Origin: Pseudomonadota bacterium
GTDB lineage: Bacteria; Pseudomonadota; Gammaproteobacteria; Burkholderiales; Burkholderiaceae_D
Direction of reading: 5' to 3'
Assembly: GCA_030272785.1 (NCBI GenBank)
Contig: JARXKM010000020.1
Location: 1 to 34,455 of the forward strand
DNA length: 34,455 nt
Shown here: piece by piece, positions 383 to 22,885 of the stretch
Layout of the letters: each line of letters opens with the position of its first letter
How positions within the stretch are numbered: position 1 is the first letter of the stretch
Program-made: the position numbers and the translations under genes
The notes under the pieces: generated by a model
What the model saw: only the letters and a program-made list of their open reading frames with translations
Databases searched by the model: none
Told to the model about the DNA's origin: nothing

Positions 383-1168
383 CTTGCGCAGCACACTCGG
401 TCATAACGGGTTCTTAGAAGCATCGAAATTGGACAAAGCGACATCAAGTGCAAAGATACTGGTTCATCGCGTTCTCAGCAACCGGTTCCGAAGAATTGCA
501 TCAGGAGTGTGAGGGGCCGATTTCGACGCCATCCTCACACGACCTATGCCTAGTGACTAGAGTGGCGCATTTCAAACCCGTCCTGTCACAGAGGGTTTAG
601 TCGTAGATTGAGATCGTTCTAATCCCACGCCCTTCGGCGAAATTCTTCATCCCAATAATGGTTCCGTCAGGAAACGCGGCAGTCCGTTTCTGGCCGATTG
701 TTCCCGCTCGCACTGCTGAGCGGCACCGGAGCTCTCGCCCCAAAGCTGACGCTCATGGTCAAACGCAGAGCGCCGAGTCAGCTTCTTTTTGGCGGCGTGT
801 TCGAGGTCGGGAAAACTCTTCTGCATGATCAATGGGACTGTGGTCTCGGATGCCGTTATTGTTGCAGGTCTTGCAAGCGACCGGAACGGCTCCGGGGAGA
901 ATTGATCAGTGCTTCCCCAACTCCTCGGCGCCAGTTCTAGTTCCCTCCATCGTGATCGAGTAAATATTCGCAAATCATCAAGTTAATAGCTCAGCTGTAT
1001 GAATAACAGCTAGTGAGTGTCGAATATCTTTACACTTAAATTTTTCGCCCGCTCTGCGACGGCGTAAGTTGCTGATTTTAAATATATTGCGATCCCGGCA
1101 CGAAATATGCTGTCTTTGTCATTCGCAGTCGTTCAAAAATAATGATTTTTCTTCCAAAGGGGATAACT
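383..1168. other. Decayed intergenic stretch, mostly unassigned
   Basis: No complete gene is visible here. Every frame is broken by stops. The only recognisable segment is a weak IS-like transposase remnant on the minus strand at 647-826. From about 960 to 1168 the sequence becomes A+T-rich and should hold the promoter of the PEP-CTERM gene, but no clear -35/-10 pair was assigned. Confidence 0.5.
647..826 (-). pseudogene. IS5-like transposase N-terminal remnant (weak)
   Basis: From the ATG at 826 the minus strand reads MQKSFPDLEHAAKKKLTRRSAF. This resembles the N-terminus of IS5-family transposases (pattern MxQxxFADLEYAxKKxxTRRexFL). After about 22 residues the similarity is lost and the frame stops at 647. 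No terminal inverted repeats or target duplication were found. The call rests on this short motif only, so chance similarity is possible. Confidence 0.35.
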
Positions 1169-1879
1169 ATGAACTGCAGGCGAATGACATCTTACCTTTT
1201 CGGCGCTATGCTGATCGCAACAACAAGTTTGGCAAGTGCTGGTCCCTATCCGGGCGCGAAAGCCGGAGGGCCAGATGACGGTTTTATCGGCTGCGACGGC
1301 ATCGGCGAATGCAGTATTACACTTGATGAACGCGGCAACATTTCAGGGACGTTTGGCGGCTTCTTTGGACCCTACAGTGTTACACTGACACACATCGCTT
1401 CTAGCACAAGTTCAGCCTACGCGGGGTTGGAAGTGACATCTTACGAGATGGTCGGAAAGGGCGGGATTGCCCCATTCCGATTAGTGGAAGGAGCGATCGG
1501 CATTTGCGATGCCGGCGTAAGCTTGGACGGAATGAGCTGCCTTGGCCCCGACGGCAATAACAAAAGCGACGTACTGGTGTTTCGTCCTGGCGCAATCGAT
1601 GGAGATGGCAATGGGCACACAATCATCGACTTCTTGTCCGAAATTTCGGGTTCCTTTGCCTTTGACACTGACTATAACGTCTTGGAAGTTGGCGGAAGTG
1701 CGGTCTACCAAACCGATGGTACCGGTTGGTATGGTGGCATAAGCGGCCAGCCCAACGCGAATGAGCGCATGACTTTCTTCGTTGCTAGCGATGAAGTCAC
1801 CGTTCCGGAGCCTTCTAGTGTCGCCCTTCTGGCGCTTGGGTTTCTGGGATTGCGTTTCAGCAAACGCCGGAAAACATAG
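1169..1879 (+). CDS. PEP-CTERM sorting-domain exported protein
   Basis: A 236-residue secreted protein of unknown function. It has an N-terminal signal peptide (MNCRRMTSYLFGAMLIATTS, cleavage likely after LASA). The C-terminus is a PEP-CTERM tail: the motif VPEPSS, a hydrophobic stretch rich in Leu, Ala and Gly, and the basic end SKRRKT. The family is processed by exosortase and is linked to exopolysaccharide and cell-surface export. The middle part is Gly/Ser/Asp-rich and matches no domain I recognise. ATG 1169 was chosen over an upstream in-frame ATG at 1142 because AAAGGGGA lies 5 bases before it. A terminator follows closely. It is intact although both flanks are decayed mobile DNA, so it may be island cargo. 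Confidence 0.85.
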   Translation: MNCRRMTSYLFGAMLIATTSLASAGPYPGAKAGGPDDGFIGCDGIGECSITLDERGNISGTFGGFFGPYSVTLTHIASSTSSAYAGLEVTSYEMVGKGGIAPFRLVEGAIGICDAGVSLDGMSCLGPDGNNKSDVLVFRPGAIDGDGNGHTIIDFLSEISGSFAFDTDYNVLEVGGSAVYQTDGTGWYGGISGQPNANERMTFFVASDEVTVPEPSSVALLALGFLGLRFSKRRKT

Positions 1880-2405: not shown

Positions 2406-2639
2406 TTACTCGGTGCGTGCCAACAGTTCGATGTAGTTCTGATAGCCGAAGGTGCGAAATTTTCGCTGACCGGTCATTTCAGTGACGATGCCTAACTCGG
2501 TGAGCAACTTGACGGCGGCATTCGCCGTCGAAAAGCTGGTCGCTAATTCTTGCCGCGCTTTTTCCACCGTAAAGCGCGGCATCATCGGCAGCAACTCAAA
2601 CAAACGGAACGCAGCGGATCCTGCCTTGGGCGAATTGTC
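2406..2639 (-). pseudogene. Fic-family protein, C-terminal winged-helix fragment
   Basis: The minus strand encodes FRLFELLPMMPRFTVEKARQ, then ELATSFSTANAAVKLLTELG, then IVTEMTGQRKFRTFGYQNYI, ending ELLARTE. This is the C-terminal winged helix found after the Fic (AMPylating) domain in many Fic proteins, with the usual TSFxTANAAVKxLxELGI and MTGQ motifs. The Fic core (HxFxxGNGR) and N-terminal parts are absent. A stop (TAA at 2649-2651) interrupts the frame upstream, and the only usable start is a TTG at 2603. A short ATG-started frame upstream (MMVTIRPRQ...) is offset by one base, which suggests deletion plus frameshift. Two palindromes lie directly upstream. Confidence 0.7.
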
Positions 2640-3491: not shown

Positions 3492-5012
3492 TCATGGCGC
3501 GCGCGCCTTCCAGTGTCTGTCGATCCATTGCTGGTGCGTCGGCATCGCCGCGACGGCCGTCGCCAGCGTCGTGCGCACGCCCTCGACGTAGTTCACCAGC
3601 TTGTCCTCGGGCATGTCATCGACGATCGGGTGGTAGCTTTGCGGCATGATGCGCTGGCCCAGCATCACCTGGACCCAACTCGGCAGCGCGAAGAAATCCT
3701 CGCCGTTGCGGAAGTAGCGTCCGTCGCAGCGGAAAAGCTCCAGCGTTTCGCGCAAGCTGTCCGGGATCGACATGGTGCGGCAATAGTCCCAGAACGGCGT
3801 GTCGTCGCGTTCGGTCGCGTGGTAGTGCAGGATCAGGAAATCGCGGACCCGCTCGTATTCGAGCGCCGATTCGCGGTTGAAGCGCTCGGCCAGCAAGGGG
3901 TTGAAATCGCGGCGCGGGAAAAGGGCCAGCAGCCGGCTGATGCCCGACTGGACCAGGTAGATGCTGGTCGATTCCAGCGGTTCCAGGAAGCCGCTGGCCA
4001 GTCCCAAGGCCACGACATTCTTGTTCCAGAACTTGCTGCGCATGCCGGGGGTGAAGCGCAGCGGGCGCGGCTCGGCCAGCGCCTTGCCGTCCAGGTTCGC
4101 CAGCAGCGTCGCGGCGGCCTCGTCGTCGCCGATGTGCCGGCTCGAATACACGTAGCCATTGCCGGTACGGTGCTGCAGTGGGATGCGCCACTGCCAGCCG
4201 GCTGCGCGCGCGGTGGCGCGCGTGTACGGCGTGATCGGATCGACGCGTTCGCTGGGCACCGCCATCGCGCGGTCGCACGGCAACCAGTGCGTCCAGTCCT
4301 CGTAGCCGGTCTTGAGCGTTTGCTCGATTAGCAGGCCGCGGAAGCCCGAGCAGTCGATGAACAATTCGCCCTCGACCAACTGGCCATTTTCCATCGTCAC
4401 CGAGGCGACGAAGCCGTCGTCGGCGCGCTGGTTGACACCGACGATCTTGCCTTCGATGCGCTGCACGCCGCGCCGTTCGGACAGCTCGCGCAGGTAGCGC
4501 GCGTACAGGCTGGCGTCGAAATGATAGGCGTAGGCGATGTCGGCCAGCGGCGAATTGGCCGGCGCATGCCTGTCGCCGGGTACGAACTTGCCGCGCGGCG
4601 CCATCACCGTCTGCAGCGAGTAGTTGCTGATCGGCGCCGCGCGCCCGGACAGGAACAGCTTGAGCCAGAATTGGTGGAACGGCAGCGGCCCCAGCGATCG
4701 ACCGATGACGCCGAAGCCGTGCAGGTAGCTGTCGCCGATGCGCGACCAGTCCTGGAACTGGATGCCGAGCTTGATCGTGCCCTGCGTACGCTTGACGAAC
4801 TCGGCCTCGTCGATGCCGAGCATGTCGTTGAACCTGCGGATGTGCGGAACGCTCGCTTCGCCGACGCCGACGATGCCGATTTCCTCGGACTCGATCAGGC
4901 GAACCGACGCCTGCTTGCCAAGATAGGTGGCCAGCGCCGCCGCCGCCATCCAGCCGGCGCTGCCGCCGCCGACCACGACTACGCGGCCAATCCGGTTGTC
5001 CGCGCCGCTCAT
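3492..5012 (-). CDS. Flavin-dependent tryptophan-halogenase-family protein
   Basis: A 506-residue FADH2-dependent halogenase homologue. Visible motifs are the FAD-binding GGGSAGWM (residues 15-22), the lysine that forms the haloamine in the family (K81, in TQGTIKLG), the diagnostic WxWxIP motif (GWQWRIPL) and the [11 protein letters not shown] segment that carries the family's catalytic Glu. All key residues are therefore present. The start at 5012 (MSGADNR) was chosen because it places the GGGSAG fold at the usual distance; a longer TTG-started frame to 5096 has no support. The gene follows the TonB-dependent receptor on the same strand, separated by two terminators. Members linked to receptors in carbohydrate loci are common in proteobacteria, but their substrate is generally unknown. 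The true substrate here may not be tryptophan. Confidence 0.9.
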
Positions 5013-5071
5013 TGCGAACACCGGCGACGCTGGCGTGCGCCGCACATCTTGTTGCGGTTTGTAGGTCTCAT
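5009..5071 (-). other. 20-codon upstream ORF overlapping halogenase start
   Basis: An ATG at 5071 opens a frame of 20 codons (MRPTNRNK..., rich in Arg) whose TGA (5011-5009) overlaps the halogenase ATG as ATGA. Such a layout allows translational coupling. The halogenase ATG has no good Shine-Dalgarno of its own, which makes coupling plausible. Chance is also possible for so short a frame. Confidence 0.3.
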
Positions 5072-5094
5072 GGTGCGGTCCCGGTCGTTCCAGC

Positions 5095-5131
5095 AAAAAA
5101 AATCGGCAGTTGCAAGGGGCGGCAACTGCCG
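5095..5131 (-). terminator. Strong rho-independent terminator between receptor and halogenase
   Basis: A perfect 10-bp stem CGGCAGTTGC/GCAACTGCCG with an 8-base loop is followed on the minus strand by A and eight T (plus-strand A run 5095-5102). It lies in the 5' leader of the halogenase gene. Confidence 0.85.
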
Positions 5132-5134
5132 AAG

Positions 5135-5167
5135 AAAAAACCCCGGCACGCCGGTCGGCGCACGGGG
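5135..5167 (-). terminator. Terminator just after the TonB-dependent receptor gene
   Basis: A GC-rich imperfect hairpin (outer CCCCG/CGGGG, inner CGCC/GGCG) is followed on the minus strand by six T. It ends about 20 bases after the receptor stop codon and is in tandem with the stronger terminator at 5095-5131. Confidence 0.65.
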
Positions 5168-5185: not shown

Positions 5186-8100
5186 TCAGAACTTGTAGCT
5201 CAGGCCCACGTAGGCGACGCGGCCGGCGTAGCCGTTCGAGTAGAACCGGTCCGTGGTGTCGCCGCCCAGATGCGAGCGGGTCTGTTGCTTGGTCAAATTC
5301 TGCACCGACGCGGTCAGGCTGAGCGCCTTGCTGAAGTTGTACGCCGCGTTCAGGTCGATCTGGGCGTACGGCGCTTCATAGACGTTCAAGCCGTTGACCA
5401 GGCCGTCCACCACTTCGCCGCGGCGGTTGTACGAAGCGCGCACCAGGTATTGGTCGTTTCCGTAGAACACGGTGAGGTTGGCCTGGTTCTTCGCGCTGCC
5501 GACCAGCGGCGACTTGCCGATGTTGGTGCCGTCTGCAAGGGTGATGGCCGCTTCGTTGGTCTTGTTGTACGTGTAGTTGAACTGGAAGCCGAGGCCGGAA
5601 TCGAACGTATGCTGCGTGTACAGCTCGACACCCTGCGACACCGCGTCGCGGCCGCCGGCACTGGTCGAGTAGCTCTGCACCGTCACCGGCTTGCCGCCGA
5701 CGTCGAGCGCGATGTCGCGCACCACCGGCACCGAGAAGTTGCTGACGTTCTTGCGGAACAAACCGGTACCGAGCACCGAGCCGCGGTGGAAATACCACTC
5801 CATGCTCACGTCGAACTGGTTGGCCTTGTACGGCTCAAGGTTCTTGTTGCTGCCCTCACCGAACCAGCCCTGCTTGTCCCCGCCGCCGATCAGGCGGCGG
5901 TCTTTGGCGTATTCCGCGCTGAAGTACTGTAGGCCGCCCGGCGCAGCGATGTCGCCGTAGCTCGGCCGCGAAATCACCTTGGAGGCGGCCGCGCGCAGCA
6001 GCAGCTTGTCGGTCAGGTCGTAGGCGATGTTGAAGCTCGGCAGGACGTCGGTGTAGGCGCGATCGAGCGAGCTGAGTACGAACGACGAGCTGCGCCCGAT
6101 GCTGTCGGGCAGCTTCGTGAAGCCGCTGACGCAGCCGGAGCCTGCGGGCGCGCCGACAGCCGGCACGCCGCCCACGCCGCACGGTGCCGGGTTGCCGTCG
6201 GCGCCGTTGTAGAAGTAGTCGTTGTAGTAGTCGACCTGGTCCGTGGAGTCGGCGTGCTGCTTGGTGCGCACCACGCGCACGCCGAGATTGCCGCGCAGGC
6301 GCTCGGTCTTGAAGTCGGCCTGCAGGTACGTCGAGGCGATCTTTTCACCGACGTTGTAGACGAAGTTCGGCTCCTGGCGGGTCTGCATCGTGCCGTAGGC
6401 CTGGTTCAGGTGACCGATGTAGGCCGGATAATTAATCGCCGGGAAGGCGCTGGCGTTGATGCCGCCGGCGAGGTTGCCCAGCGATTCCGGGTACAGGTAC
6501 GCCGGCTGGAACGTGGAGGCGGTGGGGTCGCAGCCGTTCTGGTAGCGTTTGTCGTAGTTGCCGGGATCGGCGCCCTGGCAGGTCCAGTAGTTGTTGCCGG
6601 TGTTGCGGTGGGTGCCGCCGTCACGGTACTTGGCCCCGAACTGCAGCGCGTCCAGCCAGCCGTGCTCGTTGTGCCAGGTGAAATCGGCCTGGGCATAATT
6701 CTGGTCGGTGCGGTTCCTGGTCCACGACGACGAGGTCGAGCCGAGGTCGATTTCGCCGATGCCCTTGCGCAGGTTCGCCATCAGTTCCGGCGAAAACGTC
6801 GCCGTCGGCGTGCCGAGCAGGCTCCACGCGCTGTAATAGTTGCCGAGGGTGTAGGTACCGGCCGCATTTTGCAGGCGCGGCTTGATCGGCATGGTGAATT
6901 GCAGCTCCGGACCGCCCTTGGCCCACGTCCGGCCGCCCTTGAAGGTGGCGTCCAGCGACTGGCCGTGCCATTCGGCTTCGAAGTCGGCGGTCTGCGACAG
7001 CGCGCTTTCGCGGTTGTAGCTGCCGGTGATCTGCGGCGTCGGAATCGAGCAGTCGTCCGGGCCGAAGCCGCCGGTATTGGTCACGCCGCCCGCCTTGGCC
7101 GCGGCGCCGCTGCAGTAGTAGGTCTTGCCGGCGTGCGCGCTGTATTGCGCGCCGGTGACGATGGTGCCGCTGCGGTCGAAGGTCAGGCCGTCGAGCAGGC
7201 GGCCGCCGGGCCAGTTGCCGTCGCCGGCATAGCGGGCCAGGTTCCATTCCGGAATCTTCAGCGTGTTGGTCTGGGAGTTCTGCGACAGGTCGAAACGGAA
7301 GTAGTTGGCCGTCATGGTCAGGTTCTTGACCGGCTTGAACTGCAGGGTCACCTGCCCGCCCTTGCGCTCGCGCTGTTCGTCCTTGACGTTGAAGTTGACC
7401 GAGGTCGGCATCATGAAATTGCTGTAGTACTTGCCGCTCTGGTCGTGGAAGCCCGATTCGCCCCACCAGTAACTGCTCAAGGTGGACGGCTTGCCGTTGA
7501 CATCGGTCGCCGGATGGGCGTCGTAGTCGTCGCCGTACCATTGCCAGTTTTCGGTGCTGGCACCCATGGTGCGGGTGGTGCGCTTTTGCTGGGTATAGCC
7601 CACCAGCACGCCGAAGCGGTTATCCTTGTCGTGCCAGGCATACTGGCCGGAGAACTGGCCGTCGGTCTTCTTGGTCGTGTCGGCCCAGGTCCCTTCGGTG
7701 GTGACGAAACCGGTGTTGGACTCCACGTCGAGCGGACGGCGCGTGTGCAGTATCACGGTGCCGCCGATGCCGCCTTCGTCGATGCGCGCTTCCGGCGTCT
7801 TGTACAGCTCGGCGCTGGACAGCATGTTCGCCGGCATCAGCGTGTAGTTGAACGAACGCGAGGGATCGCCGTTGGACTCGGCCGTGGCGATGTAGTTGCC
7901 GTTCAATTCGGTCAGCGTCAGTTCCGACGACAGGCCGCGCACGCTGACGTTCTTGCCCTCGCCGCCGCTGCGGCTGACGATCACGCCCGGCACGCGCTGC
8001 AGCGCGTCGGCGACGTTCTTGTCGGGGAATTTGCCGACGTCTTCGGCGGTGACCACTTCGACGATCGCGTTGGCGTTGCGCTTCTGGTCGAGACTTTTCT

Positions 8101-8356
8101 CGATCGCGTAGCGGTAGCCGACCACGACCACTTTTTCCGGTTGCTTGGTGTCGGCATTTTTCTCGGCATTTTTCTCGGCCGGATTCGCGGCCGGATTCGC
8201 GGCCGGATTCGCGGCCGGATTCGCATCCGGATTGGCGGCCGGCGTGGTTTGCGCGTGCGCGCTGCTCAGCGTCAGCAGTGCGGCGCCCAGCGCGGTGGCG
8301 ATGGGCGTTGCGGGCCAGCGGCGCTGGCGTGAAGCGAGTGGGGTCTTGAACGTCAT
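5186..8356 (-). CDS. TonB-dependent receptor (carbohydrate-type, 1056 aa)
   Basis: An outer-membrane active-transport receptor. The signal peptide ends at AHA-QTTP (about residue 36). It is followed by a repetitive Asn-Pro-Ala-Ala linker and Lys-Asn-Ala-Glu repeats, then a TonB-box-like EKVVVVGYRYAIEKSL. The plug domain contains VTAEDVGKFPDKNVADALQR, then VPGV and EGKNVSVRGL. The rest is the beta-barrel, ending in aromatic Phe (VAYVGLSYKF). The opening pattern is that of the large receptors of Xanthomonas, Caulobacter and Shewanella that import oligosaccharides. AGGAG lies 8 bases before ATG 8356. The gene opens the glycan locus, and the neighbouring GH92 and GH47 genes suggest that mannose-rich glycans are the substrate. 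Its leader is over 300 bases long and carries one of the shared 21-bp palindromes. Confidence 0.95.
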   Translation of the reverse strand: MTFKTPLASRQRRWPATPIATALGAALLTLSSAHAQTTPAANPDANPAANPAANPAANPAEKNAEKNADTKQPEKVVVVGYRYAIEKSLDQKRNANAIVEVVTAEDVGKFPDKNVADALQRVPGVIVSRSGGEGKNVSVRGLSSELTLTELNGNYIATAESNGDPSRSFNYTLMPANMLSSAELYKTPEARIDEGGIGGTVILHTRRPLDVESNTGFVTTEGTWADTTKKTDGQFSGQYAWHDKDNRFGVLVGYTQQKRTTRTMGASTENWQWYGDDYDAHPATDVNGKPSTLSSYWWGESGFHDQSGKYYSNFMMPTSVNFNVKDEQRERKGGQVTLQFKPVKNLTMTANYFRFDLSQNSQTNTLKIPEWNLARYAGDGNWPGGRLLDGLTFDRSGTIVTGAQYSAHAGKTYYCSGAAAKAGGVTNTGGFGPDDCSIPTPQITGSYNRESALSQTADFEAEWHGQSLDATFKGGRTWAKGGPELQFTMPIKPRLQNAAGTYTLGNYYSAWSLLGTPTATFSPELMANLRKGIGEIDLGSTSSSWTRNRTDQNYAQADFTWHNEHGWLDALQFGAKYRDGGTHRNTGNNYWTCQGADPGNYDKRYQNGCDPTASTFQPAYLYPESLGNLAGGINASAFPAINYPAYIGHLNQAYGTMQTRQEPNFVYNVGEKIASTYLQADFKTERLRGNLGVRVVRTKQHADSTDQVDYYNDYFYNGADGNPAPCGVGGVPAVGAPAGSGCVSGFTKLPDSIGRSSSFVLSSLDRAYTDVLPSFNIAYDLTDKLLLRAAASKVISRPSYGDIAAPGGLQYFSAEYAKDRRLIGGGDKQGWFGEGSNKNLEPYKANQFDVSMEWYFHRGSVLGTGLFRKNVSNFSVPVVRDIALDVGGKPVTVQSYSTSAGGRDAVSQGVELYTQHTFDSGLGFQFNYTYNKTNEAAITLADGTNIGKSPLVGSAKNQANLTVFYGNDQYLVRASYNRRGEVVDGLVNGLNVYEAPYAQIDLNAAYNFSKALSLTASVQNLTKQQTRSHLGGDTTDRFYSNGYAGRVAYVGLSYKF
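8177..8236. repeat. 12-bp tandem repeat in receptor linker
   Basis: Four perfect copies of GGCCGGATTCGC (8177-8224) are followed by a diverged fifth. They encode Ala-Asn-Pro-Ala repeats just after the signal peptide. The unit is a multiple of three, so copy-number change would alter linker length without a frameshift. Two copies of a KNAE-coding unit lie next to it (about 8156-8180). Confidence 0.85.
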
Positions 8357-9124: not shown

Positions 9125-11626
9125 CTACCGACTCGCGGGGCCGTCCCGCGTGACTGCCTGGCGGGGCACCTCGGCCGCCTGATCCGGCGGCAGGCTCGCG
9201 GGGCTGCTGCCCCAATGCGGCGCGGCCGGATTCGCGCCGAGCTGCATGCGGATCTGTCCGCCTTGCTGGAGTTGTTCCCAGTCGAGCCAGACCTTGTCGT
9301 GCGGCTGGCCGTTCCAGCTCAGTTGTTCGATGAACGCGACGCCGCCGGCAGGCATGCGCGCGGCCGCGGCGACCTTCTCGATGCGCAGCACTTTGCCGGT
9401 GCCCAACTCGATCTGCGATGTGGAAAATTTCGGCTCATGCAGCAGGAAGCGTCCGCTGCCCGGCGTCGACGGATACAGGCCCAGTGCGCTGAAGACATAC
9501 CAGGCCGACATGGTTCCCAGGTCGTCGTTGCCGGTGACGCCGTTGGGCGCGTTGCTAAACAAGGTTTCGGCGGCGCGCAGGACGGTGCTGGTCTTCCACG
9601 GCTGACCGACCAGGGTGTACATCCATGGCACGTGGATGTCGGGCTCGTTGTTGGGATTGTAGCGATACTGGTTGTAGTAGTTGTAAGCGCCCATCACCCA
9701 TTGCTTGCGCACGGCCTGGTAAGGATCGCGGCGCAAGTCATCGAAGGCGAAGAAGGCGTCCAGCCGCTTGGCCGCCAGTGCGCGCCCGCCCATGGCCGCG
9801 ACCATGCCGCCGATGTCCTGCTGCACCAGCCATTGGTACTGCCAGGCCGTGCCCTCATGAAAGCCGTGCTCGGCGCGCGGCGTGTAGCTGCCGTCGAGCT
9901 CGCTGTACCACTGACCACCGTCCAGTTTGGCGCGCGGAAAACCGGTGAAGCCAAGCTCGGGATCCTTGGCCTCGCTGTCCCAGACGGCGCGCCAGTTGCG
10001 GGCACGATTGCGCAAGATGGCGGCGTCGGCCGTTTCGCCCAGCGCCTCGGCCATGTAGGCGAGCGCGCCGTCGGCCTGCGCATATTCCATCGTTGCCGAG
10101 CCACCGTGATGGGGGTCGACGTCCATGCCCTTGGCACGGTAGGCGAGGTCGTATTGGACGTATCCATGCTGCAGGTAGCTGGGATTGCCGGCGCGTCCCT
10201 CGCTGCGGCTGCCGAACGGCGGCACGCCGAAGGCATTCTCGCGCAGCGCCGCATAGGCCTGTTTCTCGTGTCCTTTCAGGGCGCCGTAACGCCACAGGTC
10301 GACCAGGAACGGCGTGACCGGGTCGCCCGTCATGACGTTCGATTCGAAGTTCGCATAGCCCCAGCGCGGCAACCAGCGCGCTTGCTCGTGGATCCGGAGC
10401 ACCGACGTGGCGATGTCGCGCGCGCGCGCCGGCCGCAACAAGGCGATCAGCTGGTTCTGCGCGCGATAGGTATCCCACAAGGAGAAAAATTCGTAGTAGG
10501 TGGCGCCTTCGGCCGAGTGGAGCAGGTCGTCGTAGCCGCGATAGCGTCCGTCGGCGTCGTTGCCGGTGAGCGGCTGCAGCAGCGCGTGGTACAGCGCGGT
10601 GTAGAACACGGTGCGCTCGTCCTTGCTGGCGCTGTCGATCCGCACCGAGTGCAGTTCCTGCTGCCATGCCTGCTGCGCCTGCGCCCGCATCGTCTCGAAG
10701 CTGCGCGCCGCGCCATGACCATAGGCGTCGGCGCGCAAGTTCAGCCGGGCGCCTTCGGCATCGACATGCGAAATCGCGCTGATGGCCGTGACGGCGTGCC
10801 GGTCCTTGACGTCGAAGGTGAACCAGGCGCCATGCGGGCGGCTGTCGCCTTGCAGACTGGACAGGTGCGAGCCGGTTTGGGCGCCATGTTCGTTCCAGAT
10901 GCCATGCGAGGTGAACGGGCGGTCGAATTCCATCCGGAACCAGGTCGCATATTGCGCGCCGCCGCAGAAGCTGCGCGTGACGATCTTGCCCTCGACGCTG
11001 TGATCGTCGACCACGCGCAGCTGGCTGCCGACGACGGCGTGGCGCTCGTTGGCCTGGCCGAGGTTGACCAGGATGTGGCCTTGCGCAGCGCCGGCAGCGA
11101 AGGTGTAGCGTTCAGCGGCGGCGCGCGTGAGCGCCGTCGATTCGGCCACGATGCCGCCATAACCGGTCAGCTTGATCTTGAAGTAGCCGGCCTCGCCCAC
11201 TTCGCCTTCGTGCGTGTAGGGCGAGGCATACAGCTTGTGATCGAAACTGGCGGCTTTGTCGGTGTCAAAATCGCCGTGCGGACCGATGCTGCCGGTCACC
11301 GGCAGGACCGACAGCTGGCCGCCTTGTTCCCAGCAACCTGCGCCGGAGAGGAAGAAGTGGCCAAAGCCCCGAATCTTGGGGTCGGTATAGCGCCAGCCGG
11401 CGTAGTGCTCGCCGATCGGGCTCACCTGCAGCATGCCGAACGGCGCCGATGCGCCGGGGAAGGTGTTGCCGTCATCCTGGGTACCGATGAAGGTGTTGAC
11501 CGGATAGGGCTGCTGCTGCTGCTGCTGCTGCTGCTGCGCCGGCGCCGCATGGCCGATGCCGGCGGTGCACATCAGTGCGCTCGCGCACAGCGTGGCGATG
11601 TGTAAGGACAGCGAGGGGATAGGCAT
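9125..11626 (-). CDS. GH92 alpha-mannosidase, secreted
   Basis: An 833-residue calcium-dependent exo-alpha-mannosidase of family GH92, which commonly cleaves alpha-1,2-mannose from N-glycans or mannan. Visible motifs are VNTFIGT with GNTFPGASAPFGM near the N-terminus, EFFSLWDTYRAQN (about residue 384), NEPDIHVPWMY (about 660, holding the general acid Glu) and GNDDLGTMSAWYVFSALGLY (about 699, holding the Asp residues of the base). The signal peptide ends near GHA-APA and is followed by nine Gln. ATG 11626 was preferred to the upstream TTG because GAGGA lies 8 bases before it. It follows GH47 by 72 bases on the same strand, most likely in one operon. Linkage specificity within GH92 cannot be read from sequence by eye. 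Confidence 0.95.
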   Translation of the reverse strand: MPIPSLSLHIATLCASALMCTAGIGHAAPAQQQQQQQQQPYPVNTFIGTQDDGNTFPGASAPFGMLQVSPIGEHYAGWRYTDPKIRGFGHFFLSGAGCWEQGGQLSVLPVTGSIGPHGDFDTDKAASFDHKLYASPYTHEGEVGEAGYFKIKLTGYGGIVAESTALTRAAAERYTFAAGAAQGHILVNLGQANERHAVVGSQLRVVDDHSVEGKIVTRSFCGGAQYATWFRMEFDRPFTSHGIWNEHGAQTGSHLSSLQGDSRPHGAWFTFDVKDRHAVTAISAISHVDAEGARLNLRADAYGHGAARSFETMRAQAQQAWQQELHSVRIDSASKDERTVFYTALYHALLQPLTGNDADGRYRGYDDLLHSAEGATYYEFFSLWDTYRAQNQLIALLRPARARDIATSVLRIHEQARWLPRWGYANFESNVMTGDPVTPFLVDLWRYGALKGHEKQAYAALRENAFGVPPFGSRSEGRAGNPSYLQHGYVQYDLAYRAKGMDVDPHHGGSATMEYAQADGALAYMAEALGETADAAILRNRARNWRAVWDSEAKDPELGFTGFPRAKLDGGQWYSELDGSYTPRAEHGFHEGTAWQYQWLVQQDIGGMVAAMGGRALAAKRLDAFFAFDDLRRDPYQAVRKQWVMGAYNYYNQYRYNPNNEPDIHVPWMYTLVGQPWKTSTVLRAAETLFSNAPNGVTGNDDLGTMSAWYVFSALGLYPSTPGSGRFLLHEPKFSTSQIELGTGKVLRIEKVAAAARMPAGGVAFIEQLSWNGQPHDKVWLDWEQLQQGGQIRMQLGANPAAPHWGSSPASLPPDQAAEVPRQAVTRDGPASR
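11509..11535. repeat. (CAG)9 triplet repeat coding poly-Gln
   Basis: Nine uninterrupted CAG codons on the minus strand encode Gln9 between the signal peptide and the GH92 domain. The identical codons suggest slippage rather than selection on sequence; gain or loss keeps the frame. Confidence 0.9.
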
Positions 11627-11698
11627 TGCGGGGTTCCTCAATATGCGGTGGCGGGAAGGGCGCGGGCGCGCCGTGGGCGCCGGCGCGGCGGTCGCAGT

Positions 11699-13072
11699 CT
11701 AGTGCACCGGCACCGGGCGCAACGGGTGCGCTTCGGTGTTGAAAGTCACCGCATCGAAATCGAGCGTGTCGGGCGCGGCGAACAGCAAGTAGAAGTACTT
11801 GAACGTTTCGGCGAAGACGAAGCTTTCCATCGAGTCAGCCTTCTGCTTGCTGCGCACATCCTTGAGGGCCGCGAAGGCACCTTGGGCGCGGCAATGACGC
11901 AGGAATCCGGTCAAGAATTCGCGCCCCATGGTGCGGTATTTGGCCTCGCCCGTCTGGTGATACAAGTAGTACGCCGACTCGACAATCTCCGGACGCAGCG
12001 CGTATTCGGGCGACGTCACTTTCATGGTCCGGTAGTCCAGCGCTTCCGGTTCGATCCCATGCAGGCGCCACATTTTCAGGTTCGAGTCCTGCAGGCGACG
12101 CGCGCGATCGAGGTCGCCGCCCAGTACCAGCAAGGCCGGCATGAAGGCGTCGAGCGCGCCATATTGGGACGTCGTGCGCGCGCCGCTATGCAGGTCGGCA
12201 TGGCCGTACCACAGTTCGCCACGCACTTCATCGGCCAGATAGCGGTTGACGGCGCCGATACTGTGTTCCCACATGGTCTTGCATTCGACGTCGCCGAACA
12301 GGCGCCAGCACTTGTACAGGTACTCGTAATAGGAATCGATGCCGCCGCCGATGTGGGCGTTGTTGTCGGTCCATTTGCCGGTCACCACATCGATCGCCGA
12401 GCCGACCAGTCCGACGGCGGAGCTGCGCTCGTAAGTGGCCACCAGGGCGCGCTTGGCCTTGTCGTAGAACACCGGCTTGTTGGTCAGGCGGCTGAGGGTG
12501 CCAAATTCGAGCAGCAGGGTGCCCGTCTCGGCCGGGTTGCTGATGGTGCCGCGCACTTGTCCGGTGCGCAGGTTGACGTGGGTGTAGGGCAGGCCGGTGG
12601 GCGACTCGAACACCGGCAGCAGGCGCGTGCCGAGATCCTCGGCCAACGCCAGCAGGCGCGCGTCGTGGGTGATCTGGTAGGCGGAGAGCAGGCCGCCGAG
12701 CAGCCGGATGGTGATTTCGAAATTCTGGACGTACATGTCCTGGTCGAACGAGAGCCGGGTGGCGATCAGTTCCGTCGCCTCGCTCGCTTCCGTCTTCAAG
12801 CCCATCAACAGCAGCGTGTCGAGCGCGTCGACCGGGGTCATCAGCAGGGAGGTCGGGTACCAGTCATGCGGCTGCTTGCTCAGGGGCTTGAGCGCGTCAT
12901 GTCCCCACGCATATTTCTTGTAGGCTTGCCACGACTGCTGGGTCGCCAGCTTGACTTGCGCCGCGGCCGCGTTGGCCTCGGCTGGTGTCATCGCCGCGGG
13001 TGGCGCCGTCCCGGCGTGGGCGCTGACGCACAAGGCCAGACTGGCAAGCGTGCGGTAGAACAGTTTCTTCAT
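11699..13072 (-). CDS. GH47 alpha-1,2-mannosidase, secreted
   Basis: A 457-residue class I alpha-mannosidase. Family GH47 is mainly eukaryotic (ER/Golgi trimming of Man9 N-glycans), with a few bacterial members such as the Caulobacter enzyme. Motifs seen are YAWGHDALKPLSKQPHDW, TPVDALDTLLLMGL, FEITIRLLGGLLSAY, LRPEIVESAYYLYHQTG, SMESFVFAETFKYFYLLF, and the C-terminal FNTEAHPL whose Thr binds the catalytic calcium. All family blocks are therefore present and the length is right for the bare catalytic domain. The signal peptide is MKKLFYRTLASLALCVSAHA. GGAG lies about 8 bases before ATG 13072. The gene sits upstream of GH92 on the same strand, so both alpha-mannosidases would be made together. 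Confidence 0.95.
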   Translation of the reverse strand: MKKLFYRTLASLALCVSAHAGTAPPAAMTPAEANAAAAQVKLATQQSWQAYKKYAWGHDALKPLSKQPHDWYPTSLLMTPVDALDTLLLMGLKTEASEATELIATRLSFDQDMYVQNFEITIRLLGGLLSAYQITHDARLLALAEDLGTRLLPVFESPTGLPYTHVNLRTGQVRGTISNPAETGTLLLEFGTLSRLTNKPVFYDKAKRALVATYERSSAVGLVGSAIDVVTGKWTDNNAHIGGGIDSYYEYLYKCWRLFGDVECKTMWEHSIGAVNRYLADEVRGELWYGHADLHSGARTTSQYGALDAFMPALLVLGGDLDRARRLQDSNLKMWRLHGIEPEALDYRTMKVTSPEYALRPEIVESAYYLYHQTGEAKYRTMGREFLTGFLRHCRAQGAFAALKDVRSKQKADSMESFVFAETFKYFYLLFAAPDTLDFDAVTFNTEAHPLRPVPVH

Positions 13073-17536: not shown

Positions 17537-19570
17537 TTACTTGTCGAGCGCCCGAAAGCGAATGGCGGCGCCGCCGCCGGGCGCGAGCCACAGCGACAGC
17601 GTCTGGGCGGCGCCGGCGCTGCGCTGCTCGATGACGATGTCGTAGGGATTGCTGTCCCAGTGCGCCTGTGCGCCATCCCGATAGATCTGCGCGACGTAGT
17701 GGCGCGCCGGATCGAGGAAGTCGAGCTTGATGTCGAGCGTGCGCGCGCTGGCGTCGGTCAGCGCGCCGAGGAACCAGTCGTGGCTGTCGCGCCGCTGGCG
17801 CGCAATGGCGACGAATTGCCCCACTTCGCCGGCCAGCGCACGGCTGTTTTCCCAGTCGGTGGGCACGTCGACGATGAACTGGAAGGCATCCCGGCGCGCC
17901 TCGTAGTTTTCCGGCAGGTCGGCGGCCATCTGGATCGGGCTGTAAAGCACGACGTACAGTGCCAGTTCCTTGGCCAGGGTCGAGCGCACCCGGTTTTCGG
18001 CCTTCTCGCCATTCGGCTTGAGGTTGAAGATGCCGGGCGTGTAGTCAAATGGCCCGGCGAGCATGCGCGTGAATGGCAGCGTGGCGGTGTGCTCGGGCGG
18101 ATTGGGCGGGAAGCCCCAGGCATTGTATTCCTGGCCGCGTGCGCCCTCGCGCGTGATCCAGTTCGGGTAGGTGCGACGCAGACCGGTGTCCTTGATCGGC
18201 TCGTGCGTGTCGATGCTGATGTGGCGCTTGGCCGCCTCCTGCACGGAGCGCAGATATTCGCCTGCCATGAACTGGCCGTCATGCCACTCGTAGCGCACCC
18301 GACCCTGCTCGTCGACGCGCTTGATTCGGGCGTTGTCAGCCACGTAGCCGGTCTTGACCTGGGTGACGTGGTGGTCGCGGTAGTAGTCGTAGGCGGCGCC
18401 CATCTGGCTGGCGTAATGGCTGACCGCGCCCGAGGTTTCGTGGTGGCCGATCAGTTCCACGCCGGTATGCTTTGCGTAAGCGGCCACCTCCTTCATGTCG
18501 AAATCGGCATACGGTGTGGTGAATTTGAACAGGTCGCCGTTGTCGGGCCACTCGCCGTCCCAACCTTCGTTCCAGCCCTCGACGAGCACCCCGGCGAAGC
18601 CGTACCTGGCGGCGAAATCCATGTAGCGCTTGGTCTCGGCGGTGGTGGCGCCGTGTTGCGGGCCGGCGGACCAAGTCTTCTTCCACAAATGCATGGCCCA
18701 CCAGATACCGACGTATTTGCCAGGCTTGACCCAGGAGACGTCGCCCAGTTTGTTCGGCTCGTTGAGGTTGAGGATCAGGTCCGAGTTGAGCAGGCCGGGC
18801 GCGTCCGGTGAAATCTGGACAGTGCGCCAAGGCGACTTGAAATCGGTGCGCGTCTTGACCTTGATGCCGTCGTACCAGGGCGTGAGGTCGGCCTTGAAGA
18901 CGCCGTCGCGTTGCTGCGCCAGCGTCATCGAGGCATAATCGGTCAGGGCTGCTTCGTGGATGCTCATGTGCACCCCCGAGGCCAATCGGAACGTGAATGG
19001 CGTCTCGACGTGGGCCGCTTCGCGCAGCGACGTGTTGCGGTACAGGTATTCGAGGCTGCGCCAGGCGCGCGCCGGTATCCACCACGCGCGCGTCTGGTCG
19101 CTGTCGGGAAGCGCGAATTCGGTCGATTCGTCGACGATGTCGACCTGCTCCATGCCGGGCTGTCTGGGTACTTCATAGCGAAACCCGATGCCGTCGTCGA
19201 AGACCCGAAAGCGCACCGAGAACCGGCCGCTTTCCCCGGGCGCGCCGGTAAAATCGACGCGCAGCTCGTTGTGGCGGTCGCGCACGTGCTTGCGCTCGCC
19301 CCACGGCTGGGTCCACACCGCGTCGGCCTGGGCCGGCGCGCTTGCGGCGATGCGGTAGCCGTCGCCGAAGGAGGCGTGGTCCTTGAAGACGAGGCCCAGC
19401 CGGGACGGCGCGATCACTTGCTGGCCGCGGTAGCTGACACGGTAGCGCGGGTGGGCCTGGTCGTCGCTGACGGTGACGACGATCGCGCCGTCGGGCGAGT
19501 GCACGCTGACGTCCTTGGCGAACACGAGCGGGCAGAGCAGGGCGAGCAGAATCAGGCTAGTTCGATGCAT
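17537..19570 (-). CDS. GH97 alpha-glucosidase-type enzyme, secreted
   Basis: A 677-residue GH97 (SusB-like) enzyme with the usual three parts. These are an N-terminal beta-sandwich beginning VSVHSPDGAIVVTVSDD, a (beta/alpha)8 barrel, and a C-terminal beta domain ending WLAPGGGAAIRFRAL. Barrel motifs are GVLVEGWNEGWDGEW, HHETSGAVSHY, IDTHEPIKDTGLRRTYPNWI and TREGARGQEYNAW. The Glu residues in these blocks match the calcium ligands and acid/base of the inverting alpha-glucosidase branch, not the retaining alpha-galactosidase branch that uses an Asp nucleophile. The signal peptide is MHRTSLILLALLCPLVFA. In an N-glycan locus it could remove the glucose cap of Glc1-3Man9 chains. It follows the sugar kinase by 141 bases, with a perfect palindrome just before its start. 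Confidence 0.93.
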   Translation of the reverse strand: MHRTSLILLALLCPLVFAKDVSVHSPDGAIVVTVSDDQAHPRYRVSYRGQQVIAPSRLGLVFKDHASFGDGYRIAASAPAQADAVWTQPWGERKHVRDRHNELRVDFTGAPGESGRFSVRFRVFDDGIGFRYEVPRQPGMEQVDIVDESTEFALPDSDQTRAWWIPARAWRSLEYLYRNTSLREAAHVETPFTFRLASGVHMSIHEAALTDYASMTLAQQRDGVFKADLTPWYDGIKVKTRTDFKSPWRTVQISPDAPGLLNSDLILNLNEPNKLGDVSWVKPGKYVGIWWAMHLWKKTWSAGPQHGATTAETKRYMDFAARYGFAGVLVEGWNEGWDGEWPDNGDLFKFTTPYADFDMKEVAAYAKHTGVELIGHHETSGAVSHYASQMGAAYDYYRDHHVTQVKTGYVADNARIKRVDEQGRVRYEWHDGQFMAGEYLRSVQEAAKRHISIDTHEPIKDTGLRRTYPNWITREGARGQEYNAWGFPPNPPEHTATLPFTRMLAGPFDYTPGIFNLKPNGEKAENRVRSTLAKELALYVVLYSPIQMAADLPENYEARRDAFQFIVDVPTDWENSRALAGEVGQFVAIARQRRDSHDWFLGALTDASARTLDIKLDFLDPARHYVAQIYRDGAQAHWDSNPYDIVIEQRSAGAAQTLSLWLAPGGGAAIRFRALDK

Positions 19571-19711: not shown

Positions 19712-20662
19712 CTACGGCAGTTGCGCGTACCGCGCCTCGGCGCGCGGCTGCGGCAGCAGTGCTTCGATGCTGGCCAGCGTCGGCGGGCAGGCGCCGCTGC
19801 CGAGGCAGGCGGCAGCGCCGGCGGCGACGGCGAAGCGCAAGTGATCGAGCGGCGCACCCGCCGGGGCGCGCATCAGACTAAAGAGCAGCCCGGCGATGCT
19901 GGCGTCGCCGGCGCCGACGCTGTCGGCCACGGCAATGGCCGGCGCAGGCGCCTCCCAGTGCTGCGCGCCGATGTGCAGCGAGGCGCCGGCCGCGCCCTTG
20001 GTGTAGAGGTAGGCGGCGTCGCCGTTCCAGCTGCGCAGGGTGGCAAAGGCGGTCGCCAGGTCGTCGCTGCGAAACAGGCCGGCGAGGTCTTCGTCGGACA
20101 CCTTGACGACGTCGGCGAGCTGCGTCATCTGGCGCAAGGTGCTGTCGTAGCGCGCGTCCATCAGGGCACGGTGGTTTGGGTCGTAGCTGATGCGCACGCC
20201 GGCATGCTTCAAGCTTCGCGCCAGCGTCACCAGGCGGCCCGCCAGCGGTTCGCGCGCCAGGCTGATGCCGCCGAAATGCACCCAGCGGCTGTGCGCCTGC
20301 CAGCCTGCCGGCAGTGCGGCGGCGTTGAAATGCAGGTCGGCGCTGTCGTCGCCGATGAAAAAGTAGCGCGGCGGGCTGCTCTGATAGACCACGGCCAGCA
20401 GCGGCGCCTTGTCGATGCGCTGGATAAAACGCAGGTCGAGCCCGGCCTCGGCGCTCGCCTTGCGCAGTGCCTCGCCAAAGACATCGGTGCTGATGGCGCC
20501 GGCAAAGGCGCTCGCCACGCCCAGGCGCGCCATCACGCGCGCCACGTTCCAGCCCGAGCCGCCGACCTGGCTGTTCCAGTTCGACTGCGCGGCGTCGTTG
20601 GCGATGAGGTCAGTGAGCGCCTCGCCGGCGGCGACAAACAGCGGAAGGGGCGCCTCAGTCAT
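19712..20662 (-). CDS. PfkB-family sugar kinase, probable fructokinase
   Basis: A 316-residue cytosolic ribokinase/PfkB kinase. It shows the N-terminal GGSGWNVARVMARLG block, a central SYDPNHRALMD block, and the C-terminal anion-hole motif ADSVGAGDASIAGLLF whose Asp is the catalytic base. Its start overlaps the stop of the mannose isomerase gene by 8 bases (ATGACTGA), so it is translationally coupled to it. An isomerase making fructose next to a PfkB kinase supports fructokinase activity, giving fructose-6-phosphate. Other hexose or nucleoside specificities cannot be excluded from sequence alone. Confidence 0.88.
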   Translation of the reverse strand: MTEAPLPLFVAAGEALTDLIANDAAQSNWNSQVGGSGWNVARVMARLGVASAFAGAISTDVFGEALRKASAEAGLDLRFIQRIDKAPLLAVVYQSSPPRYFFIGDDSADLHFNAAALPAGWQAHSRWVHFGGISLAREPLAGRLVTLARSLKHAGVRISYDPNHRALMDARYDSTLRQMTQLADVVKVSDEDLAGLFRSDDLATAFATLRSWNGDAAYLYTKGAAGASLHIGAQHWEAPAPAIAVADSVGAGDASIAGLLFSLMRAPAGAPLDHLRFAVAAGAAACLGSGACPPTLASIEALLPQPRAEARYAQLP

Positions 20663-21905
20663 GGCTTGGCCCGAGCGCGCCGAGCACTTCATAGCAGGCG
20701 CCCATGGTGTGGTAGTCGGTCTTGCCGGCGGGGCTCTTGTGGGTGCAGATCTTGCGGTTGTCGCCGCCCAGGATACGGTACCAGGCGCCGTTTTCATGGT
20801 CGACGAAATGGCGCCAGCTGTAGTCCCAGATGCGGTCGTACCAGTGCCAGTAGTCTGGCTCGTCGCAGCGTTGGGCCAGCAGCGCGGCGGCCGCCAGCGT
20901 CTCTGCCTGGACCCAGAAATATTTGTCGCTGTCGCAGACTTGTCCGTCCGGTGCGAAACCGTAGACGATGCCGCCATGAACCGGATCCCAGGCGGCCGCC
21001 ATGGCGCGCTCGAACAGGTCGCGCGCCCGCGCGAGCAGCCAGTCCGGCTCGCGCGCCAGGTGCGCCTGGTGACGTTCGAGGATCAGCAGCAGCTTGCTCC
21101 ATTCGGTCAGGTGACCCGGCTGAAAGCCCCATGGCCGGAAGATGTCATTGCGGTTGTCTTTATTGAAGCCGGCATCGAGCGACCAGTCGGACCGGTAGTG
21201 CTCCCAGATCAGGCCGCCCGAAAGCGCTGCCTGGCGCACCGTGATGTTGTAGGCGAGCGTTTCGGCGCGCAGCAGGTACGGCTTGAATCCGGTCGCGTCG
21301 AAGGCGGCCAGCAGTGCCTCGCAGGCGTGCATGTTGGCGTTCTGGCCGCGGTAAGGGCCGAGCACGGACCAGTCGGCGCTGGCCTCGTCGGCGTACAGGC
21401 CGTACTGCTCGTCCCAGAAATGGCGTTCCATCAGATCGAACGTTTCGGCGATATAGGCATGCGCCTCGGTGACGCCGGCCATGCAGGCGTGCGCATAGGC
21501 GAGCAGCACGAAGGCCAAGCCGTAGCAGTGGTTGGTGGCGTCGGTGATGAGCTTTTCCTGCCCGTTCCAGCATAGCTCCCAGGCATAGCCGCCGGTCCGC
21601 GGATCGCGGTGGGCCGAGCGCAGGAAGTCGATGCCGTGGCGGACGCGCTGCTGGTATTCCGGCTGGTCGAAGTGGCGGTAGGCCATGGCGTGGTTGAAGA
21701 TGAAGCGGGTGCTGCTCACCAGGTGGCGGGTGTGCCGGTCATAGACGGTGCCGTCGTCCTTGTAAAAATGGTAGAAGCCGCCGCTGGGATCGACGCAGCG
21801 CGGGTCGTAGAAGGCCATGGTATGGCGTACGTGTGCCAGCAGCACAGACGGAAGTCGGAAATTGGGGAGCATGGGCGCAGGTGGGTGAAGGCTGGAATAG
21901 GTCAT
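20655..21905 (-). CDS. AGE-family D-mannose isomerase (ManI/YihS-like)
   Basis: A 416-residue (alpha/alpha)6-barrel protein of the N-acylglucosamine 2-epimerase superfamily. The conserved His blocks are all present: GQNANMHACEALL, FQPGHLTEWSKLL and KTDYHTMGACYEVLG, with SSTRFIFNHAMAY and GGYAWELCW before them. This pattern fits the mannose isomerase branch (ManI/YihS), which converts mannose to fructose, better than renin-binding-protein-type epimerases. No signal peptide is evident, so it is cytosolic. Its ATG overlaps the LacI stop as ATGA, and its stop overlaps the kinase start. The three genes form a tight unit for regulation and entry of mannose into glycolysis. A sulfoquinovose- or GlcNAc-related role is less likely given the mannosidases nearby. 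Confidence 0.88.
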   Translation of the reverse strand: MTYSSLHPPAPMLPNFRLPSVLLAHVRHTMAFYDPRCVDPSGGFYHFYKDDGTVYDRHTRHLVSSTRFIFNHAMAYRHFDQPEYQQRVRHGIDFLRSAHRDPRTGGYAWELCWNGQEKLITDATNHCYGLAFVLLAYAHACMAGVTEAHAYIAETFDLMERHFWDEQYGLYADEASADWSVLGPYRGQNANMHACEALLAAFDATGFKPYLLRAETLAYNITVRQAALSGGLIWEHYRSDWSLDAGFNKDNRNDIFRPWGFQPGHLTEWSKLLLILERHQAHLAREPDWLLARARDLFERAMAAAWDPVHGGIVYGFAPDGQVCDSDKYFWVQAETLAAAALLAQRCDEPDYWHWYDRIWDYSWRHFVDHENGAWYRILGGDNRKICTHKSPAGKTDYHTMGACYEVLGALGPSHD

Positions 21906-22885
21906 TTGCAGACTGTGCTTTCGCGCACGATCAGGCGTACTGGAACGACGCGTTCGACGATCTCGTCGGCCTTGCCGTTGAGGAGAAGCTCGACGCCGAT
22001 GGCGCCCAACGCCGCCTTGTCGATGCTGATGGTTGTCAAGGGCCGCTGCGCCAGCGCCGCCGCCGCAATGTTATCGAAGCCGACGATGGAGATGTCATGC
22101 GGCACCTTGACCTTGGCCGCGTAGCAGCAGCGCATGGCCACCAGGGCGGCGCTGTCGTTGTAGCAGAACACGGCATCGGGCCGGTTCGGCAGCGCCAGCA
22201 ACGCCTGCATCGCGTTCCAGACGGCTTGCTCGTTGTCGATGCCTTCCTCGAGCGCCACTTCGAGACGCGGGTCGGCCAGCACGCCGGCGTCGAACAGGGC
22301 CTGGCGAAAGCCCCTGGCGCGTTCGCGTATGCTGTAGTGGGCCAGCGAACCGGTGATGAAGCCGATCCGGTTGCGCCCGATGTCGAGCAGGTGGCGCGTG
22401 GCCAGGTAGCCGCCCATCTGATTGTCCGGATTGACCGAGGTAAAGTCGTGCATTTTCATGTCGATCAGTACCAGCGGCTTGCCCGTTGCGCGCAGCGCCG
22501 ACAGCATCTCGGGTTCAAAATAGCCGGCGCACAAGATGGCGTCGGGCGCGTGCAGGCGAATCTGGTCGATCATGCCGTCGGCCGGGCCGACCGCCATGAA
22601 CGACAGGATGATGCCCTTGTTGCGGCAGGCCTCGGCCGCGCCATGCAGCACCGGCGAATAGAACGGACTGCTGGCGACAGTATTGTGCTGGTGGTGCAGC
22701 AAGAAGGTGAGGCGGCGCACCTTTTTCTGGCGCAAGCGGCACAGGTCGTAGCCCATTTGCTGCGCCGTATCGAGCACGATCTTGCGCGTCTCTTCGGTCA
22801 AGCCGGACTCGTTCTTGAGGGCCCTGGAAATGGTGCCGATCGACAAGCCGGCGGCCTTGGCAACGTCGCGTATCGTGATGCTCAT
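21902..22885 (-). CDS. LacI-family transcriptional regulator of the glycan locus
   Basis: A 327-residue LacI/GalR regulator. The N-terminal helix-turn-helix is TIRDVAKAAGLSIGTISRAL and is followed by the hinge region to about residue 60. The periplasmic-binding-protein-like sensor domain includes DAILCAGYFEPEM, RNRIGFITGS, RPDAVFCYNDSAALVAM and ISIVGFDNI. ATG 22885 has AGGAG 9 bases upstream. It is the first gene of the lacI-isomerase-kinase run and is divergent from the MFS transporter. It presumably represses the locus and is released by mannose, fructose or a phosphate ester, and its probable targets are the 21-bp palindromes. Both effector and operator are inferences. Confidence 0.93.
   Translation of the reverse strand: MSITIRDVAKAAGLSIGTISRALKNESGLTEETRKIVLDTAQQMGYDLCRLRQKKVRRLTFLLHHQHNTVASSPFYSPVLHGAAEACRNKGIILSFMAVGPADGMIDQIRLHAPDAILCAGYFEPEMLSALRATGKPLVLIDMKMHDFTSVNPDNQMGGYLATRHLLDIGRNRIGFITGSLAHYSIRERARGFRQALFDAGVLADPRLEVALEEGIDNEQAVWNAMQALLALPNRPDAVFCYNDSAALVAMRCCYAAKVKVPHDISIVGFDNIAAAALAQRPLTTISIDKAALGAIGVELLLNGKADEIVERVVPVRLIVRESTVCK

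Follow-up and report, generated by a model that had tools for sequence, protein, structure and literature searches.

A flavin-dependent halogenase of the BrvH/Xcc4156 kind is recurrently placed with TonB-dependent receptors of sugar loci in proteobacteria

BrvH and Xcc4156 are flavin-dependent halogenases that brominate indole or its derivatives and do not accept tryptophan (PMC5945002, PMC7336383). Both have an open site, from which the authors suggested larger substrates, possibly peptides (PMC5945002, PMC7336383). Their native substrates were published as unknown (PMC7336383). BrvH and the Xanthomonas campestris enzymes are also named exceptions to the glycine of a proposed halide-site motif, Fx.Px.Sx.G (PMC7336383).

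The window, which is the whole stretch of 34,455 nucleotides that was analysed, has a gene for a flavin-dependent halogenase of 506 aa at 3492-5012 on the minus strand. This gene is read from the ATG at 5012, 14 residues ahead of the FAD motif; a longer open reading frame (3492-5096, minus strand) is possible from the first TTG at 5096. The protein matches the whole Pfam model PF04820 (Trp_halogenase, profile positions 1-458) with an E value of 4e-200 and 665.8 bits against a curated cut-off of 21. The GxGxxG motif, the catalytic lysine, the WxWxIP motif and the catalytic glutamate are all present. The FAD-binding motif is GGGSAG at residues 15-20 (4953-4970, minus strand, computed from the ATG), and the codon for Lys81 lies at 4770-4772 (minus strand) in a column that holds lysine in 180 of 187 aligned sequences. 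WQWRIP occupies residues 273-278 (4179-4196, minus strand). Glu347 (codon 3972-3974, minus strand) lies within PLESTS, residues 345-350, and its column holds glutamate in 181 of the 187 sequences. The statement in the earlier note that all halogenase hallmarks are intact is therefore borne out. No signal peptide was seen by eye, and the N-terminus opens straight into the FAD-binding fold. Judged by its sequence, the window gene is intact and otherwise unremarkable among halogenases of a known kind, that of BrvH and Xcc4156.

The family alignment contained 184 collected halogenases and three PDB chains. Both the lysine and the glutamate are kept in 177 of the 184. The window protein has serine where the proposed halide-site motif calls for glycine. 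Serine is found at this second position in 147 of the 187 sequences and glycine in only four. The glycine is not a defining feature, since the active BrvH is without it too. The best PDB match is 9luq (541 bits), followed by Xcc4156 (6y1w, 538 bits) and BrvH (6frl, 495 bits); the free-tryptophan halogenases PyrH (302 bits), PrnA (286 bits) and RebH (263 bits) score lower. The 9luq protein, deposited as 'Tryptophan halogenase', is about 50% identical to the window protein and falls in the Xcc4156 clade. Xcc4156 is likewise about 50% identical, has the same catalytic residues and no Trp-closing motif, and has relatives in TonB-receptor cassettes. However, its nearest relatives end SapC-Cupin_8 cassettes, and it reads PIESTN in place of PLESTS. 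BrvH (47% identity) shares the serine at the second halide-site position and the open site, but it belongs to a separate subclade and has HPFGL where the window protein has HGFGV. Compared by motifs only, in the available part of PMC8269204, Xcc-b100-4345 has ATVPHI and HGFGT versus ASVPHI and HGFGV in the window protein.

PrnA, RebH and PyrH belong to the same family and align with the window protein over much of its sequence. In contrast, their Trp4 motif is missing from the window protein, which has serine where they usually have the halide-site glycine. Neither of the Trp4 motifs of groups A and B, as described in the part of PMC8269204 that was available, is found in the window halogenase. 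A slightly looser form of the motif from the same part was found in none of the 187 sequences, a set that held no free-tryptophan halogenase as a positive control. The window protein aligns to Xcc4156 and BrvH without an insertion at region 2, i.e. without a long loop. It thus has two sequence features of the open-site group C, the absence of a Trp4 motif and of a long region 2 loop; a preference for bromide and the acceptance of indole, though not of free tryptophan, also belong to the profile of that group. The earlier note had proposed released tryptophan or peptides as substrates. The missing motifs, within the limits of that source, speak against free tryptophan, while a peptide or protein is still a possible substrate.

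The upstream neighbour of the halogenase on the same strand is a TonB-dependent receptor of 1056 aa (5186-8356, minus strand). It passes the TIGR01782 model with an E value of 2e-221 and 737.7 bits against a curated cut-off of 310. The neighbour was noted earlier as a carbohydrate-type TonB receptor, and the sugar setting proves to be fuller than had been described. Genes for glycosidases of the alpha-mannosidase type follow in families GH92 (9125-11641) and GH47 (11699-13072), with a GH97 glycosidase at 17537-19570 and a PfkB sugar kinase, an AGE-type epimerase and a LacI regulator at 19712-22960, all on the minus strand. The locus also has a CBM9-like protein, an asparaginase_2-type hydrolase and, on the other strand, an MFS transporter. 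These gene families suggest a locus for the utilisation of high-mannose glycans or N-glycans. Pfam searches of the 20 genes called in the window, the one at the window end being searched only in part, gave no natural-product biosynthesis family, in agreement with the claim that no such genes are near. SapC, Cupin_8 and DUF6445 were likewise not found by Pfam at the window locus, so the order receptor-SapC-Cupin_8-halogenase seen elsewhere does not occur there. Three further features of the window were observed. An NPAA-type repeat, likely variable in length, lies soon after the signal-peptide region near the N-terminus of the receptor. A PEP-CTERM sorting-signal protein adjoins the locus at 1142-1879 (plus strand), and a short open reading frame at 2406-2603 (minus strand) is HTH_13-like below the cut-off and possibly a remnant of a longer gene.

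The gap between the receptor and the halogenase has a terminator-like hairpin with 11 pairs and a T8 tail (5103-5132, minus strand) and a second, weaker one (5146-5163, minus strand). There is no Rfam match in this gap. A simple scan across 6.9 kb found 8 terminator-like sites against 7.5 expected from shuffles. Across loci, a hairpin occurs in 32 of 96 adjacent same-strand receptor-halogenase gaps versus 16 of 244 other co-directional gaps of 60-250 nt, with a shuffle mean of 0.55. Where a gene other than a halogenase follows the receptor, 7 of 26 gaps have a hairpin as well. Therefore the hairpin goes with receptor genes, and a halogenase-specific feature is ruled out. The position of these hairpins suggests that the genes downstream, including the halogenase, are made in smaller amounts than the receptor.

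The association with receptors extends across the alpha-, beta- and gammaproteobacteria. The named loci are the best 80 of 594 halogenase relatives. They contain 83 called halogenase genes, to which L096 and L111 contributed none because the gene caller missed theirs. Among these best 80, a TonB receptor lies directly upstream on the same strand for 66 of the 83 halogenases and within 5 kb for 73. Receptors directly upstream are found in Massilia eburnea (beta), Marilutibacter (formerly Lysobacter) chinensis (gamma) and Sphingomonas leidyi (alpha), at loci L068, L092 and L089, respectively. Systematic sampling of the phylum (60 stretches) gave 97 called halogenases, with 20 stretches 300 kb away as controls. 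A receptor lies within 5 kb of 78 of the 97; in the controls this holds for 1 of the 20 centre genes and for 9 of 324 genes. Only 40 of the 97 immediately adjoin a receptor, and 27 are directly behind one. In ten genomes rated 100% complete, every halogenase candidate and up to 39 receptor candidates per genome were scored. A TIGR01782 receptor lies within 5 kb of 66 of 74 halogenases, whereas random placement would give 3.95; 58 of these 66 sit downstream of the receptor on the same strand. Two of the eight unlinked halogenases (L160, L161) follow Oar-type receptors. Seen from the other side, 48 of the 122 scored TIGR01782 receptors have a halogenase within 5 kb. Of the 52 genomes whose halogenase is strong (E below 1e-150), 51 contain TIGR01782, versus 78 of 398 genomes overall, a comparison in which related genomes are not independent. 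The source genome itself has six halogenases, four of them in receptor cassettes (the window, two on contig C408 and one on C126); the other two, on C108 and C219, are at contig ends with no receptor in view. Halogenases of the BrvH/Xcc4156 kind are thus recurrently placed with TonB receptors of sugar loci. The nearest relatives of BrvH (65% and 56%) lie directly behind TIGR01782 receptors. For Xcc4156, the nearest relatives among the collected halogenases (65-68%) each close a SapC-Cupin_8-halogenase cassette, and a receptor is in view in two of three.

No description of this link was found in the open-access literature on the halogenase or SapC with TonB or sugars, and the word 'TonB' is absent from the main texts of PMC5945002, PMC7336383 and PMC8269204. 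The sequence identities of a halogenase and its adjacent receptor are correlated (r 0.80, 77 pairs, reached by 0 of 999 permutations); since r drops to 0.13 for pairs with halogenase identity under 0.6, this correlation mostly reflects close relatives. Ahead of the receptor gene, some 3 kb from the halogenase, several loci have short conserved stretches that are probably regulatory DNA (L066, L067, L078, L084 and others). Loci L216-L218 have a more distant PF04820 subgroup (E about 1e-130) with no receptor in the stretch, which is perhaps a different functional group.

The window halogenase belongs to a clade of 56 halogenases (support 1.0), and in 54 of these a TonB receptor is encoded on the same strand no more than four genes upstream. 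As a check of gene-neighbour conservation, this figure and the count from the ten genomes uphold the tie between halogenase and receptor. HGFG and FHQFWLK motifs are conserved in the clade. As to the immediate neighbour, 35 members lie behind TIGR01782 receptors and 18 behind Oar-type receptors (CarboxypepD_reg and OMP_b-brl_4). The 35 TIGR01782 loci have GH92 in 25 cases and a GH2-type mannosidase in 24. In 17 Oar loci, PF10091 glycosidases occur in 12 and parts of ABC sugar transporters in 10 and 8. These neighbour clusters were mostly named from a single member, and L160, L161 and L181 were left out of the clustering. Relatives linked to Oar-type receptors are L098-L101, L103-L109, L112, L124, L125, L129, L160 and L161, many with PF10091 and ABC sugar transporters. 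The sugar receptors found beside this clade are unrelated in sequence and differ in cargo, an argument against any explanation that involves only glycoproteins. The proposal that glycoprotein feeding is the reason for the halogenase is therefore weakened, as relatives occupy loci for other glycans.

Other cassettes have additional enzymes. On C408 of the source genome (L146:7148-15012), a receptor, a halogenase, SapC, Cupin_8 and another halogenase lie in a row; in the first of the two halogenases WIWDIG and PLEASA replace the usual motifs. On C126, the order is receptor, halogenase, DUF6445, and at L147:11343-12050 a DUF6445 gene is immediately behind a halogenase. The Cupin_8 protein matches human FIH (E 2e-20) and JMJD5/JMJD7, enzymes of a type that are mostly protein hydroxylases. 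Its HxD..H motif is invariant in 23 of 23 Cupin_8 proteins. DUF6445, for which Pfam lists no function, has HxD and a later histidine in 18 of 18 proteins. The folds that its structural model (pLDDT 93.6) matches are mostly those of 2OG-Fe(II) oxygenases (best E 1.6e-5, TM about 0.3-0.5), so the domain is predicted to fold like one. The SapC model is poor (pLDDT 52.8). Of the 29 SapC genes in the ten genomes, 20 have a halogenase within 5 kb and 20 have a TIGR01782 receptor within that distance. The set of halogenase, Cupin_8, DUF6445 and SapC looks like oxidative tailoring, and its target may be a polypeptide of the uptake system.

The preferred explanation is that the window gene encodes a cytoplasmic tailoring halogenase that modifies a polypeptide destined for the uptake system at an aromatic, tryptophan-like group, with a probability of about 0.38. 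It draws on the intact catalytic residues, the receptor linkage, the orphan enzymes BrvH and Xcc4156 in the same setting, the open site and the oxygenase partners. In the cytoplasm, an unlinked reductase would supply the enzyme with FADH2. Hypohalous acid formed at the flavin would be handed to Lys81 and Glu347, and an exposed indole or other aromatic group would be halogenated, probably brominated. The substrate may be the receptor before export or another exported component of uptake. The halogenase may also be one of an oxidative tailoring set attached to such receptors, made up of halogenases, an FIH/JmjC-like oxygenase and DUF6445, with SapC. Halogenases of this kind need FADH2. Together with the lack of a visible signal peptide ahead of the FAD-binding fold, this makes a receptor-bound or periplasmic aromatic compound, as suggested in the earlier note, an unlikely substrate.

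A polypeptide substrate could leave a trace in the receptors. The receptor alignment had 130 linked and 46 unlinked TIGR01782 receptors, which became 132 and 44 when L096 and L209, whose halogenases the gene calling had left out, were moved to the linked group; at 50% identity they form 48 linked and 40 unlinked clusters. Among the 130 and 46 receptors, no tryptophan column differs by at least 0.4 between the groups, the sole column over 0.4 being a threonine. The largest tryptophan difference (132 versus 44 receptors) is 0.63 versus 0.28 at residue 371 of the window receptor. Tryptophan content is equal in the two groups, and tryptophan before NPxLxP is no commoner in linked receptors (17 of 39 versus 11 of 30). 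A conserved tryptophan that marks linked receptors as a whole is therefore rejected. Among 523 three-residue tryptophan patterns, the best was D...WG, in 19 of 48 linked versus 1 of 42 unlinked clusters (p 1e-5), or 19 of 48 versus 1 of 40 (p 1.6e-5) after L096 and L209 were relabelled. It lies at one mid-barrel column, mostly as LTDPxGWG, in 23 receptors, all among the 132 linked ones and none among the 44 unlinked, a count found after the fact. Receptors with this LTDPxGWG-like site are at L119, L120, L139, L159, L171, L177, L194, L197, L198, L208 and L214. Two unlinked receptors (L270, L280) carry PxxWG at the site, and any tryptophan within 8 residues of the column occurs in 26 of 48 linked versus 12 of 40 unlinked clusters. 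The pattern is missing at this column from the window's own receptor group and is found in 0 of 18 linked Oar-type receptors. No tryptophan motif common to the TIGR01782 and Oar-type receptors of the window clade was obvious. The site is counted in favor of a polypeptide substrate as a lead and not as proof, and it may merely mark a receptor subfamily. A conserved small peptide gene beside the halogenase, as a hidden precursor, is also rejected. Among 1373 small open reading frames near halogenases, no cluster was present in more than 5 loci, and the clusters of 5 loci lay about 3 kb off, ahead of the receptor.

Several observations count against a polypeptide. Linked receptors have no special tryptophan overall, the window clade goes with two unrelated receptor families, and the window locus is without SapC, Cupin_8 and DUF6445. 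The modest share of halogenases that adjoin a receptor (40 of 97) or follow one directly (27 of 97) in the systematic sample points the same way. In addition, many 2OG oxygenases, including many of the listed fold matches of DUF6445, tailor antibiotics. The substrate may instead be a small aromatic molecule, such as an indole-like compound or a glycan-borne aglycone, with a product that serves as a signal or deterrent, or with detoxification as the purpose, when the uptake locus is on. Since there is no special tryptophan overall, no peptide gene and no common motif, this is a real possibility and nearly as likely as a polypeptide. It agrees with the bromination of indole or its derivatives by BrvH and Xcc4156 (PMC5945002, PMC7336383), and a role on the ligand side or across the cell would suit a link to receptors that are unrelated in sequence. 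However, the activity of BrvH on indole is low and the authors doubt that indole is the natural substrate (PMC5945002). The partner receptors also serve different glycans, so one common aglycone is unlikely. By Pfam, none of ten recurrent neighbour clusters is a natural-product family, although an MFS transporter cluster occurs in 18 of 81 loci.

The remaining explanations are less probable. QhpG acts on a protein tryptophan, and the enzyme might, like QhpG, mainly oxygenate in the cell rather than halogenate. The window protein weakly matches the QhpG and LodB models, and the other cassette enzymes look like oxygenases. With 23.5 bits for a curated cut-off of 240 and 20.7 bits for one of 400, respectively, these matches fall far short, and the conservation of both lysine and glutamate in 177 of 184 halogenases, with the lysine required for halogenation by BrvH (PMC5945002), makes oxygenation improbable. 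It is more improbable still that the enzyme protects the feeding cell locally from competitors or phage by releasing hypohalous acid. BrvH and Xcc4156 have an active-site lysine that is exposed to solvent (PMC5945002, PMC7336383), and PMC11337851, in the part available, guesses at bactericidal by-products or a virus-host receptor role for phage and Colwellia halogenases. That work assigned halogenase transcripts to Pelagibacter phages and Colwellia, and its available part mentions halogenase and TonB receptors separately; its virus-host receptor guess is comparable with the receptor link described here. Against a defensive role, BrvH was negative as a bromoperoxidase (PMC5945002), no signal peptide was seen by eye in the window halogenase, and the conserved HGFG and FHQFWLK motifs of its clade suggest a bound substrate. 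Chance or hitch-hiking, with no functional tie between halogenase and receptor, has in its favor the 8 of 74 halogenases away from a TIGR01782 receptor and the two at contig ends on C108 and C219 in the source genome. It is largely refuted by 66 of 74 linked halogenases against about 4 expected, and two of the eight exceptions are the genes behind Oar-type receptors (L160, L161).

The preferred explanation, a cytoplasmic halogenase with a polypeptide substrate, can be extended from the window gene to the family. A dedicated post-translational tailoring set of open-site halogenases, FIH/JmjC-like and DUF6445 2OG oxygenases and SapC, attached to the TonB receptors of sugar loci, would act in the cytoplasm on uptake proteins bound for the outer membrane. 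It would modify their aromatic and other residues ahead of export, an example being the tryptophan of the LTDPxGWG-like motif in one receptor subfamily. This wider form is unlikely, though it has the broadest consequences. To our knowledge, halogenation would be new as a modification of proteins in the bacterial outer membrane. If the wider form is true, outer-membrane proteins with halogenated, bromotryptophan-like residues would be widespread among Proteobacteria, and a change in the binding of phage or ligands is a possible purpose. It would also give BrvH, Xcc4156 and their kin a native role. With BrvH, Xcc4156 and the window gene in one receptor-linked family, these orphan halogenases gain a biological setting that can be tested.
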